DNA of 64,000 bases from Alphaproteobacteria bacterium (GTDB lineage Bacteria; Pseudomonadota; Alphaproteobacteria; Micropepsales; Micropepsaceae): positions 434,001-498,000 of the forward strand of contig WGNU01000001.1 in the NCBI GenBank assembly GCA_016124385.1, given 5' to 3'. Of this stretch, positions 13,544-49,997 are shown piece after piece (the first letter of the stretch is position 1; every line of letters begins with the position of its first letter). The notes beneath the pieces are model-generated. The model made no database searches. It was not told where the DNA came from and saw only the letters and a list, made by a program, of their open reading frames with translations. A program made the translations under genes and the position numbers.

Positions 13544-13644
13544 TGTCATGGCCGGCCTTGTGCCGGCCATCCAGGGTTCCGCGTCACCGGCGCTTCCCGC
13601 CGATCGGGGCGCGATGGATGACCGGGACAAGCCCGGCCATGACA
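13544..13644. repeat. R2 element (101-bp two-hairpin repeat)
   Basis: It begins TGTCATGGCCGGC and ends GCCGGGC-type sequence then CATGACA. Each end folds on itself (GGCCGGC...GCCGGCC; CCGGGAC...GCCCGG) and the two ends are inverted copies. The stop codons of two convergent genes flank it. Same family as 20800-20851 (partial), 33995-34095, 43395-43495, 49896-49997 and 60764-60849. Confidence 0.75.
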
Positions 13645-20799: not shown

Positions 20800-20851
20800 A
20801 CGGCCGTTGATCGGCCCGTAATGGATGGCCGGGACGAGCCCGGCCATGACA
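20800..20851. repeat. R2 element, right half only
   Basis: It contains ATGGATGGCCGGGACGAGCCCGGCCATGACA, the right-hand hairpin of the 101-bp R2 family. The left hairpin is replaced by a short CGGCCGTTGATCGGCCCG stem. It probably represents a decayed or solo copy. Confidence 0.6.
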
Positions 20852-33866: not shown

Positions 33867-34242
33867 ACGGCGCCAAGGCCTCCAACGTTGTCTCGTCACC
33901 GCACGCGCATGCGGGTGGTCCATGGCCTCACAGGTTGTCCGGCGGCCATGGATCGCCCGCATGGCGCGGGCGATGACGTAAGAAAAACACTGAGTGTCAT
34001 GGCCGGGCCTGTCCCGGCCATCCCTCTTGCCGACCTGCCGAACTTGCCCGGCGATCGGGGCGCGATGGATGGCCGCCACAAGGGCGGCCATGACATGTTC
34101 GATGGCAGGCGGGGCACGTTCCCGCCCGAGGCGGGCCGCCGCACCGCCGCTTAGCCCTGACCTCTGAGGGCCTGACCTCTGAGGGAATGGAAATCATCCA
34201 AGGCGCAGGCTCCCATCGGGATCCCCGAAAGGAAGGTGGGCC
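33867..34242. other. intergenic with R2 repeat
   Basis: About 375 bases with no supported gene. A complete R2 element lies at 33995-34095, and a direct duplication of CTGACCTCTGAGGG occurs at about 34155-34183. The Shine-Dalgarno of the next gene (GGAAGG) is at its right end. Confidence 0.55.
33995..34095. repeat. R2 element (101-bp two-hairpin repeat)
   Basis: TGTCATGGCCGGG...CCCGGCCATCC forms the left hairpin and ATGGATGGCCGCC...GGCGGCCATGACA the right. The right stem has changed to GGCCGCC/GGCGGCC with both arms altered together. Confidence 0.75.
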
Positions 34243-41796: not shown

Positions 41797-42339
41797 CTAG
41801 CGCGGCGCCATCACCATCATCATTTGCCGCCCTTCGAGCTTGGTGTCCTGCTCGACCTTGGCGATCTCGTCGAGCTCGGTGCGGATGCGCTGGAGCAGCT
41901 GCATGCCCAGATGCTGATGCTGCATCTCGCGGCCGCGGAAGCGCAGCGTGAATTTCACCTTGTCGCCCTCTTCGAAGAAACGGCGCGCGGCTTTCAGCTT
42001 CGTGGAATAATCATGGTCGTCGATCGAGGGGCGCATTTTCAGCTCCTTCACCTCGATGATCTTCTGCTTCTTGCGGGCTTCGGCCGCCTTCTTCTGCTGT
42101 TCGTATTTGAACTTGCCGAAATCCATCAACCGGCAGACGGGCGGGGTGGAGTTCGGCGCAACCTCGACGAGGTCGAACCCTTCTTCTTCCGCGAGGCGGA
42201 TGGCGTCCAGCTTGCGCATGACGCCGCGCTTCTCATTGCTCTCATCGATCACCAGCACTTCGGGCGCGGTGATGTCGTGATTGACGCGGGGGCCGTCCTT
42301 CGCCTCGGGCTTAGCGGCAGTCATGGGTCGTCTGACTAT
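41797..42339 (-). CDS. infC: translation initiation factor IF-3, probable AUA start
   Basis: 180 residues with both IF-3 domains: D-G-P-R-V-N-H-D-I-T-A-P-E-V-L-V-I-D at the N-terminal domain, the lysine-rich linker E-A-R-K-K-Q-K-I-I-E-V-K-E-L-K, then R-F-R-G-R-E-M. IF-3 checks start codons and anti-associates subunits. I chose the ATA at 42339: a perfect AAGGAG (42347-42352) lies seven bases before it, and the product opens V-R-R-P, a motif I recall in related IF-3 proteins. The ATG at 42324 is 22 bases from that Shine-Dalgarno. Rare starts in infC allow IF-3 to repress itself, as known for AUU in E. coli. Confidence 0.9.
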   Translation of the reverse strand: MVRRPMTAAKPEAKDGPRVNHDITAPEVLVIDESNEKRGVMRKLDAIRLAEEEGFDLVEVAPNSTPPVCRLMDFGKFKYEQQKKAAEARKKQKIIEVKELKMRPSIDDHDYSTKLKAARRFFEEGDKVKFTLRFRGREMQHQHLGMQLLQRIRTELDEIAKVEQDTKLEGRQMMMVMAPR

Positions 42340-42352
42340 GGGTCGTCTCCTT
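42337..42352 (-). promoter_or_regulatory. infC: infC ribosome-binding site with AUA start codon
   Basis: AAGGAG, a seven-base spacer, then ATA. The next in-frame ATG is 15 bases further. The spacing argues that ATA is the true initiation codon and the site of IF-3 autocontrol. Confidence 0.65.
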
Positions 42353-42612
42353 GGAGCGCGGGCCACGGCAAACGGCGAACGGCACCTGCGCTCCGGAGCG
42401 GTGTCCTCCGGGCGATCATGGCAGCGATCAAACGAGGAGGTGCCCCTTGGCAGATGGCGCCACCGCCCGCGTGACGCCGCGAGGGGGCTGAATGGCGCGA
42501 AAGCTAAGCGCGTCTCGGTCAAAGCGCAAGGGTGCTTGTCCGGCGCCGGCGATGGAGCGATTGAACGCATCGGCTTACCGCGCCTGCGAAGGGCGTTTGC
42601 GCCCCCGCCCGC

Positions 42613-43332
42613 CTAGCTCCACCCGCCCGAGATGTTCAGCACCTGGCCGGTAACGAACCCCGAATTGCCCAGCGCGAAGAAGGCGATCGCCTCCGCCGCC
42701 TCCGCCGCATCGCCCAGCCGGCCGAGCGGAATGCGGCCATAGAGCTTCTCGCGCTTGGCGGGGTCCGCCAGCAGCGCCTTGGGATAATAGGTCTCGGTCT
42801 GGATGAAATTGGGCGCGACCGCGTTGACGCTGATGCCCTTGGGCGCAAGTTCGAGCGCGAGGCTCCGGACCGCGCCGTTGATCGCCGCGCGCGCGGCCGC
42901 ATAGGCGGCAAAGCCCGGAATGCCGCCGATCGGCCCGGACGACGTCGCGAACACGATGCGCTTGATCGCGCAGATCGACAGCGCCGCCGCCACCATCGCC
43001 AGGGGCTCGATCGCCAGCTTCTCGAAATAGGGGCGCGTCGTGCCGGCGCTCAGCGTCTCGGCGGGCGTGCGCGGCGCGGGCAGGGCGGCGGGAATGACCA
43101 GCACGTCGAGATCGCCGTGCTTGGCCTTCGCCGCCGCGATCGTTTCTTCCGCGCTCGTCTGCGCGACGGTTTCCACCTTCGGGCGCGGGCCGACGAAGGA
43201 TTGCGTGATCCCGGTATTGTTGAAATCGGCGTCCGCCGCGATCACGCGCGCGCCGCCCTCGATCAGCCGCTCGCAGAGTTCGGGCCCGACGAAATGGGTC
43301 GCGTCGGTCACGAGGACGATGGGGTTCGCCAT
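42613..43332 (-). CDS. halohydrin dehalogenase-like SDR
   Basis: 239 residues, SDR fold. Both halohydrin dehalogenase signatures are exact: T9-x4-F14-x-G16 (T-D-A-T-H-F-V-G), which replaces the SDR cofactor motif T-G-x3-G-x-G and forms the halide site, and S131-x12-Y144-x3-R148, in which arginine replaces the SDR lysine. The downstream A-P-N-F-I-Q-T-E-T-Y-Y-P and T-G-Q-V-L-N-I-S-G-G-W also resemble HheC. These enzymes convert vicinal halohydrins to epoxides without NAD(P) and can open epoxides with azide or cyanide. Activity is inferred. AGGAGG lies five bases before ATG 43332. It lies between thrS and infC with an R2 repeat on the thrS side. Confidence 0.85.
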   Translation of the reverse strand: MANPIVLVTDATHFVGPELCERLIEGGARVIAADADFNNTGITQSFVGPRPKVETVAQTSAEETIAAAKAKHGDLDVLVIPAALPAPRTPAETLSAGTTRPYFEKLAIEPLAMVAAALSICAIKRIVFATSSGPIGGIPGFAAYAAARAAINGAVRSLALELAPKGISVNAVAPNFIQTETYYPKALLADPAKREKLYGRIPLGRLGDAAEAAEAIAFFALGNSGFVTGQVLNISGGWS

Positions 43333-43394
43333 GGATGCCTCCTGTACTCGGGCGTGCCCACCATAGATTGCTGCCGCCGAGCGGACCACAACGC

Positions 43395-43495
43395 TGTCAT
43401 GGCCGCCCCTGTGGCGGCCATCCATCGTCGGCCGATCGACGGGAGCCGCCTGAGAAGCGGCGCCATGGATGGCCGGGACAAGCCCGACCATGACA
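43395..43495. repeat. R2 element (101-bp two-hairpin repeat)
   Basis: The left hairpin GGCCGCC...GGCGGCC and right hairpin CCGGGAC...GCCCG lie between TGTCATGG and CATGACA ends. It lies between the thrS stop and the HHDH start, where it could separate their transcripts. Confidence 0.75.
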
Positions 43496-43508: not shown

Positions 43509-45467
43509 CTAGGCCGAACGCAAATCCGGCGGCGTCGCTTCCGCCGCAAAAGCCGCGATCGCCGCATCGAGGCTCATCGATTCCTGCTTGTCGGAGCCGA
43601 GCCGGCGGACCGAGATCGTTCGCTCCTCCGCCTCCCGCTTGCCCGCGACGAGCAGGATCGGGGTTTTTGCTAGGCTATGCTCGCGGACCTTGTAGTTGAT
43701 CTTCTCGTTGCGAAGGTCGGCCTCCGCGCGCAGGCCGGCTCTCTTCAGCAGGTGAACCACCTCGTCGGCGTAAGGGTTCGCGTCCGAGACGATCGTCGCG
43801 ACGGCGATCTGCGTCGGCGCGAGCCAGAGCGGGAAGCGCCCGCCATAATGCTCGATCAGAACGCCGATGAAGCGCTCCATCGAGCCCAAGACCGCGCGGT
43901 GCAGCATCGCCGGGCGCTTGCGCGAGCCGTCCTCGGCGACGTACTCGGCCTCGAACCGTTCCGGCAGATTGAAATCGACCTGCACGGTGCCGCATTGCCA
44001 GCCGCGCCCGATCGCGTCGAACAGTGTGAACTCGAGCTTGGGGCCATAGAACGCGCCCTCGCCCGGATTCTCCGTATAAGGAATGTCGAGGCGGTGGCAC
44101 GCCTCGGCGAGATCGGCCTCCGCCTTGTCCCAGATCTCGTCCGACCCGATGCGGTTCTCCGGCCGCGTCGCCAGCTTCACGCGCACGTCGTCGAACCCCA
44201 GTTCCTTGTAGGTCTCGAAGATGAGTTCGCTCGCGCGCACGGATTCATCGACCATCCGTTCGGGCTCGCAGAAAATATGCGCGTCGTCCTGCGTGAACCC
44301 GCGCACGCGCATGATGCCGTGGAGCGCGCCCGAGGGCTCGTAGCGGTGGCACGAGCCGAACTCGGCCATGCGGATCGGCAAATCGCGATAGGATTTGAGC
44401 CCCTGGTTGAAGATCTGCACGTGGCCGGGGCAGTTCATCGGCTTGACGGCCAGTGTCTTCTTCTCGTCCTCGACTTCGGCGAGGAACATGTGCTCGCGGA
44501 ACTTCGCCCAATGGCCCGAGCGCTCCCACAGCGCCCGGTCGAGCAGCAGCGGCGTCTTCACCTCGATATAGTCGCGCGCCTCGATCTTGCGGCGCACATA
44601 GGATTCGAGCGTGCGGAAGAGCGTGTAACCCTTCGCGTGCCAGAACACCTGGCCGACCGCTTCTTCCTGGATGTGGAAGAGATCCATCTCGCGCCCGATG
44701 CGGCGATGGTCGCGCTTCTCGGCTTCCTCGAGGCGCGTGAGATAGGCCTTCAGCTCCTTCTCGTCGCGCCACGCGGTGCCGTAGATGCGCTGCAGCTGCG
44801 CGTTTTTCGCATCGCCCCGCCAATAGGCGCCCGAGATTCTAGTGAGCTTGAACGCGGTGCCGATCTTGCCGGTCGAGGGCAGATGCGGCCCGCGGCAGAG
44901 GTCGTGCCAATCGCCGTGATAATAGACGCGGATTTCCTCATCGCCCGGCAGGTCGGCGATGATCTGCGCCTTGTACTCCTCGCCGATCGATTTGAAATGC
45001 GCGATCGCCGTCTCGCGCGGCCACACTTCGCGGCGCGTCTTGAGGTCGGCCGCGACGAGCGCGCGCATCTTCTCTTCGATCTTGGGCAGATCGTCGGTCG
45101 TGAACGGCTCGTTCCGCGCGAAATCGTAGAAGAACCCGTCCTCGATATTGGGGCCGATCGTCACCTGCGTGCCGGGGAAGAGCTCCTGCACGGCCTGCGC
45201 GAGCAGATGCGCCGTGTCGTGCCGGATGATGTCGAGTGCCTCCGCCTCGTCCTTGCGCGTGATGATCTGCAGCCGCGCGTCCTCGGTGATCGGCAGGTCG
45301 AGATCGACCATCCGCCCGTTGACGCGCGCGCACAGCGCGGCCTTGGCGAGGCCGGGCCCGATCGCGGCGGCGATGTCGCCGGCCGTCACGCCGCGCGTTT
45401 CCGTCCGCACCGTGCCGTCGGGCAGGGTGATGCGAATGGAAGCGGTAGTCGCGGCGGGGGCGGACAA
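43509..45467 (-). CDS. thrS: threonyl-tRNA synthetase
   Basis: 652 residues, full length. It has an N-terminal TGS domain ([10 protein letters not shown]), the editing domain with [10 protein letters not shown], then the class II core with M-N-C-P-G-H (zinc cysteine), [19 protein letters not shown] (motif 2) and [11 protein letters not shown] (motif 3), and a C-terminal anticodon-binding domain. The start is TTG 45467 with GGAG seven bases upstream; no in-frame ATG precedes the TGS domain. Head of the ancestral thrS-infC gene order. Confidence 0.97.
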
Positions 45468-49895: not shown

Positions 49896-49997
49896 TGTCA
49901 TGGCCGGCCTGCGTGCCGGCCATCCATCGCGCCCCGATCGACGGGTTTCGCCGGTGAAGCGGCGCCATGGATGGCCGGGACAAGCCCGGCCATGACA
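49896..49997. repeat. R2 element (two-hairpin repeat)
   Basis: Left hairpin GGCCGGC...GCCGGCC, right hairpin GGCCGGG...CCCGGCC, between TGTCATGG and CATGACA ends. Lies between convergent hydrolase and baeRF-like genes. Confidence 0.75.

Follow-up and report, generated by a model that had tools for sequence, protein, structure and literature searches.

The locus raises the question of whether an SDR-fold protein encoded between thrS and infC in a member of the Micropepsaceae is a halohydrin dehalogenase (HHDH), and on what it might act if it is one. HHDHs form and open epoxides without a cofactor; they are prized catalysts, and their natural role is largely unknown. The features that bear on the question, given in coordinates of the window (the whole 64,000-nucleotide stretch of DNA analysed), are as follows.

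42613..43332, minus strand: HHDH-like gene, 239 aa, predicted cofactor-independent SDR with Ser131-Tyr144-Arg148 (from frame, motifs, profile, tree and structure)
43338..43343, minus strand: Shine-Dalgarno-like AGGAGG, 5 nt 5' of the ATG (from sequence)
43285..43308, minus strand: codons of motif 1, T9-D-A-T-H-F14-V-G16, putative anion/nucleophile pocket position (derived from the reading frame)
42889..42942, minus strand: codons of motif 2, S131-x12-Y144-x3-R148, predicted catalytic residues (derived from the reading frame)
42781..42810, minus strand: codons of the loop N175-F-I-Q-T-E-T-Y-Y-P184, HHDH-type substitute for the SDR PG loop (derived from the reading frame)
43509..45467, minus strand: thrS (threonyl-tRNA synthetase), the gene upstream, with no share in the function (Pfam)
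41797..42402 (about), minus strand: infC, IF-3, downstream neighbour, whose start codon could lie further upstream (Pfam)
43469-43495, 13544-13570, 13618-13644, 20825-20851, 33995-34021 and 49971-49997: copies of a palindromic repeat

The gene between thrS and infC

The reading frame, which runs from 43332 to 42613 on the minus strand and comprises 239 aa plus stop, lies where the preliminary description had placed it, and the neighbours named there are likewise confirmed by Pfam. The frame could be read further upstream, to 43491, but with AGGAGG 5 nt before the ATG the longer version is probably spurious. The gene has a GC content of 66/52/90% at codon positions 1/2/3, which, like the dN/dS comparison below, speaks against decay. 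No promoter matching the consensus was found for it, and its single terminator-like site represents no excess over shuffled sequence. As a separate observation, the dispersed palindromic repeat ATGGCCGGGACAAGCCCGACCATGACA, with up to 3 mismatches allowed, occurs in six copies in the window vs 0 expected; the copy at 43469-43495 lies between thrS and the HHDH-like gene and yields a spurious frame, 'MVGLVPAIHG'.

Motifs, phylogeny and fold

The accessible text of two papers gives T-x4-F/Y-x-G and S-x12-Y-x3-R as filters for HHDHs (PMC4989007; PMC11976700). The window protein carries both motifs exactly and at the positions first read from the sequence, the first as T9, F14 and G16 and the second as S131, Y144 and R148, so that S-Y-R stands in place of S-Y-K. 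The accompanying claim that the cofactor glycines and the catalytic lysine are absent is borne out by alignment, in which not only TGxxxGxG and YxxxK but also NNAG and PG are substituted. TGxxxGxG is replaced by TDATHFVG in the window protein; across the query and its relatives in one alignment it becomes TDxxxFxG/A/N or close variants, NNAG becomes IPAA or similar, YxxxK becomes YxxxR, and in the substrate loop PG gives way to N-[FY]-IQTE-x-YYP. This loop is nearly invariant among the aligned members of the 19-member clade to which the protein belongs, and it fits the N-[FY]-x4-x-Y-[YF]-P of HheA, HheD2 and 6a41. Neither HHDH motif occurs in any of 16 ordinary SDRs (seven from the window's genome and nine from elsewhere), and motif 2 is present in 22 of 22 homologous S-Y-R loci, so that a chance origin of the motifs is unlikely. 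FabG and other NAD(P)H-dependent SDRs, such as L002 of the same genome, have the fold and Ser-Tyr geometry of the window protein but possess TGxxxGIG, NNAG, YxxxK and PG, all of which it lacks.

Pfam assigns the window protein to the SDR superfamily only (adh_short_C2), and none of the best 25 NCBIfam models listed exceeds its own cut-off. When the single sequence was searched against the PDB with phmmer, 6a41, a 'dehalogenase', was the top match (3e-36), followed by 7b73, 1zmo, 4z9f, 8xxb and 8oxf, after which FabGs, at 86 bits, scored about the same as HheC, at 81-85 bits. A clade profile built from 18 clade members ranked 13 distinct HHDH chain sequences first in the PDB (best 1e-49), and the first FabG followed at 4e-28. 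Three of these 13 (7b73, 8xxb and 8h8y) are listed under other names and were recognised through relatives: 7b73 because it is named HheD2 in the Foldseek listing, 8xxb because it is a close relative of 7b73, and 8h8y because it equals AbHheG_m (8hqp) in length and nearly so in scores.

A tree of 42 rows, made up of the 19 members of the clade, a further 16 S-Y-R proteins (6a41, HheA, HheB, HheC, HheD2 and 8xxb among them) and seven SDRs of the window's genome, separated the S-Y-R proteins, including the query, from the SDRs at 100/99, and the same was found with 16 SDRs. The 19-member clade has a support of 100/100 and a stem length of 0.85, and it lies on the A/C side of the HHDHs (92/89, and 86/94 after nine more SDRs were added), while HheB, HheD2 and 8xxb form a separate branch at 100/98. 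It thus falls outside A, B, C and D as sampled; the tree holds no HheE, HheF or HheG sequences, HheB and 8xxb enter it as partial sequences and HheD2 in two pieces, and for these reasons the clade is not certain as a new type. The placement on an HHDH phylogeny that the preliminary description had proposed therefore agrees with it in that the protein groups with HHDHs and not with SDRs; it puts the protein within no subtype among A-D as sampled. As judged from sequence, the clade appears separate at the subtype level and close to the A/C branch, and with so long a stem its function could have shifted. An AU test of a grouping of the clade with the SDRs gave p 0.32, a value that, the test being unrooted, speaks only to whether the remaining HHDHs group together and not to SDR membership.

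A first structure model, made with 14 sequences (pLDDT 74) and weak in the active-site loops, was replaced by a second AlphaFold2 model made with 21 sequences (mean pLDDT 87.1), a monomer without ligand. HHDHs are homotetramers that bind an anion where SDRs hold the nicotinamide. The best eight of the 50 PDB entries listed for the second model are all dehalogenases. VIA-align gave 6a41 a Z of 30.3 with an rmsd of 2.2 over 237 residues, and seven HheC entries followed at Z 28.5-28.8 (rmsd 2.2-2.3 over 234-236 residues), with other SDRs starting at Z 27.9 and HheA at 27.5; this lead over the SDRs is narrow, as one fold is common to the entire superfamily, and the structure ranking agrees with the sequence ranking. 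The nearest solved relative by phmmer, profile, Foldseek and VIA-align alike is 6a41, a 'dehalogenation enzyme' of the HheA/HheC branch. It reaches a Foldseek TM of 0.91 and shares S-Y-R, T-x4-F-x-G and the YFP loop with the window protein, but it is only about 33% identical to it, lies outside the 19-member clade and retains N-N-D at the place taken by I-P-A in the window protein. HheA (1zmo, 4z9f) and HheC (1pwx, 3zn2) have both motifs, the fold and a PNF/PNY loop with YFP or YFYP; they differ from the window protein in their identity of 29-32% and their S-N-D segment, and the C-terminus of HheC is the longer. In HheC this extension bears a Trp reaching into the adjacent active site. HheD2 (7b73) and HheB (4zd6) have motif 2 in common with the window protein but belong to a different branch; HheD2 also shares motif 1 and a 'VLVIxxAxPAP' segment. 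The A/C types have an Asp in their S/N-N-D segment that is absent from the window protein and also from HheB and HheD2.

An ordinary NAD(P)H-dependent SDR, its motifs having drifted by chance, would fit the SDR fold, the adh_short_C2 assignment and the NCBIfam result, but the 19 clade members consistently lack every one of the cofactor signatures. Given also the motifs' confinement to the S-Y-R side in this SDR sample, the tree split and the profile ranking, with TGxxxGxG and YxxxK missing, we rejected this reading as highly improbable. The profile, the tree and the eight top structures support the preliminary assignment, and the window protein is probably a halohydrin dehalogenase, that is, an SDR-fold lyase predicted from its sequence and modelled structure to have lost NAD(P)H binding.

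The pocket glycine and a proposed mechanism

Within the clade, the two motifs behave differently. Ser, Tyr and Arg of motif 2 are kept in 19 of 19 members and Thr9 in 18 of 19, but the glycine of motif 1 is kept in only four (the window protein, L009, L010 and L012), is Ala in two (L011 and L013) and is Asn in 13 (L018-L030). The window protein thus satisfies the published two-motif filter, and most of its orthologues fail it. That the two motifs tell HHDHs from SDRs, as had been assumed at the outset, holds insofar as they are the published HHDH motifs and occur in none of the 16 SDRs; since most orthologues (15 of the 19 members) fail motif 1 at the glycine, the test is not transferable to the whole clade. 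In HheC and HheG, according to the accessible text of PMC11976700, this glycine tolerates only Ala, with activity then falling drastically, and natural motif-1 variants are mentioned there only at the threonine. A search of the open-access literature, with subscription papers mostly outside its range, found neither the clade nor a natural variant at the motif-1 glycine. The kind of enzyme is already known; what seems new, on the sequences compared, is a divergent clade of its own in which 15 of 19 members naturally carry another residue in place of the pocket glycine.

The loss of the pocket Gly in most of the clade, together with its long stem, would also be expected of a catalytically weak or non-enzymatic relative, a pseudoenzyme kept for binding or structure. 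Such a role is very unlikely, given that Ser, Tyr and Arg are kept throughout, that the IQTE-x-YYP loop is nearly invariant in aligned members, that the motif is complete in the window member and that dN is below dS. The last holds in 11 of 11 pairs of clade genes compared (for example 0.147/0.755 for L009/L010 and 0.039/0.560 for L019/L024); the gene is therefore maintained and not decaying, and purifying selection is acting in the clade.

As an HHDH, the window protein may work as HheC does. By this analogy, Tyr144, its pKa lowered by Arg148, would remove the proton from a vicinal hydroxyl, Ser131 would hold the oxygen, and the oxyanion would expel the adjacent leaving group, a halide or other anion, to give the epoxide. 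The anion would presumably be received in a pocket replacing the nicotinamide site and lined by T9, F14 and G16 and by the N175-F176-I177 / Y182-Y183-P184 loop. In the reverse direction, small anions could open epoxides.

Neighbours, distribution and the natural substrate

A catabolic haloalkane cluster was considered and rejected, there being no such gene among the neighbours named by family search. The preliminary description had held that the location gives no hint of the substrate; this stands for the window itself, near which no gene for haloalkanes or other halogenated compounds was seen, but not for some relatives, which lie beside acyl-CoA genes. In three of the five genomes of genus g6 (L039, L040 and L042), a pair of acyl-CoA dehydrogenase genes immediately precedes the HHDH gene, the gap to its start being 3, 620 and 10 nt, respectively; this arrangement hints at a lipid or acyl-CoA substrate. 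The g6 genomes without the pair (L041 and L043) are those with Ala16; the window is also without it, and no orthologue of the first gene of the pair was found in the window's genome (best 34%; assembly 74% complete). A second set of loci, the 13 labelled Hyphomonadaceae-type, has an acyl-CoA ligase directly upstream in two (L019 and L024), an acyl-CoA dehydrogenase directly downstream in one (L022), an RND permease near in eight, a hybrid histidine kinase directly upstream in six and, downstream on the opposite strand in nine, a putative TetR regulator read by eye; these counts come from a simple ORF caller, and the loci L026 and L028 break off at the gene or close to it. No theme in common with the window clade emerged from the surroundings of HHDHs that do not belong to it, where genes for alpha-amylase, GMC oxidoreductase, homoserine dehydrogenase, FBPase and RecJ occur. 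Elsewhere in the window's genome, on another contig, two adjacent EHN-type epoxide hydrolase genes lie on the same strand (G000:C5:35952-37433), so that an epoxide product could be processed. This assembly yielded no Trp-halogenase, and nothing in it passed the cut-off for a type II haloacid dehalogenase; both absences are weak evidence because the assembly is 74% complete.

A clade-level score, set at 349 bits or more, was reached in the family scan by six of the 96 genomes that it covered, namely the window's own and all five of genus g6. In an even, class-wide sample of 385 genomes, a clade-level score was reached in the window's genome only, and a scan of named genomes yielded the 13 full-length Hyphomonadaceae-type members (by title eight Hyphomonadaceae/Hyphomonas, four Alphaproteobacteria and one 'bacterium'). 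In the window, as in each of the five g6 genomes, the HHDH-like gene and infC are neighbours, and three of those five also have thrS upstream; the contig of L042 ends before thrS, and L043 has no thrS in about 10 kb. Among 18 other family genomes examined around infC, 15, including G001, have thrS and infC with no HHDH between them, and in three thrS was not found in up to 1.5 kb beside infC. A tree of thrS/infC, with a midpoint root, places g1 and g3 together beside g6 (88/85), a placement compatible with either of two histories of the gene, one old gain with losses or a later transfer into the same site. Three side observations belong here. Five of the 15 thrS copies (L060, L062, L063, L066 and L067, all g5) are distant versions that share 39-42% identity with that of the window, and other g5 genomes have thrS 67-71% identical to it, so that two threonyl-tRNA synthetase types occupy the same place. 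In G001, a genome of the same genus as the window's, another HHDH-like gene (210 bits, 43% identical to the window protein; L015 / L045) with both motifs exact lies away from thrS-infC, beside GMC oxidoreductase and beta-lactamase-family genes. A second HHDH-like group with exact motifs comprises L072, L073 and L074, from three genomes of genus g127.

What was unexpected in the clade is its stable site beside infC in several genomes, the acyl-CoA neighbours of some relatives and the loss of the pocket glycine. One explanation is that in this clade the HHDH scaffold serves a reaction of the cell's own metabolism that involves no halogen, namely the opening or closure of an epoxide or the loss of another anion (carboxylate or thiolate, for example) from lipid or acyl-CoA intermediates; any dehalogenation observed in vitro would then be incidental. 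The acyl-CoA genes described above, the Gly to Asn or Ala replacements beside an intact S-Y-R and a site beside infC kept in six genomes are consistent with this; the window gene itself, however, has no adjoining acyl-CoA gene, the first g6 pair gene has no orthologue found in its genome, Gly16 is kept and neighbourhoods differ among the groups, and we consider the proposal unlikely. A more far-reaching reading, likewise improbable, takes the 19 members for an HHDH subtype of their own, new and at work in endogenous lipid/acyl-CoA metabolism, in which the glycine would have been replaced twice (by Asn on the Hyphomonadaceae-type stem and by Ala in two g6 genomes) with S-Y-R intact, pointing to a changed nucleophile or leaving group, and of which the window protein would be a surviving Gly form. 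Our guess is that in nature the enzyme acts on an epoxide or beta-substituted alcohol arising in the cell's own lipid/acyl-CoA metabolism and not on a man-made haloalcohol.

The accessible text of a 2016 review of HHDHs allows that further physiological functions cannot be excluded (PMC4989007). A branch of probable HHDHs that is kept beside infC in several genomes and tied to acyl-CoA dehydrogenases in some may offer a concrete lead to a natural substrate. The natural series from Gly to Asn and from Gly to Ala, with the Gly-bearing window relative, provides a ready panel on the role of the motif-1 glycine, and the same panel would also probe whether the two-motif filter overlooks real HHDH relatives.
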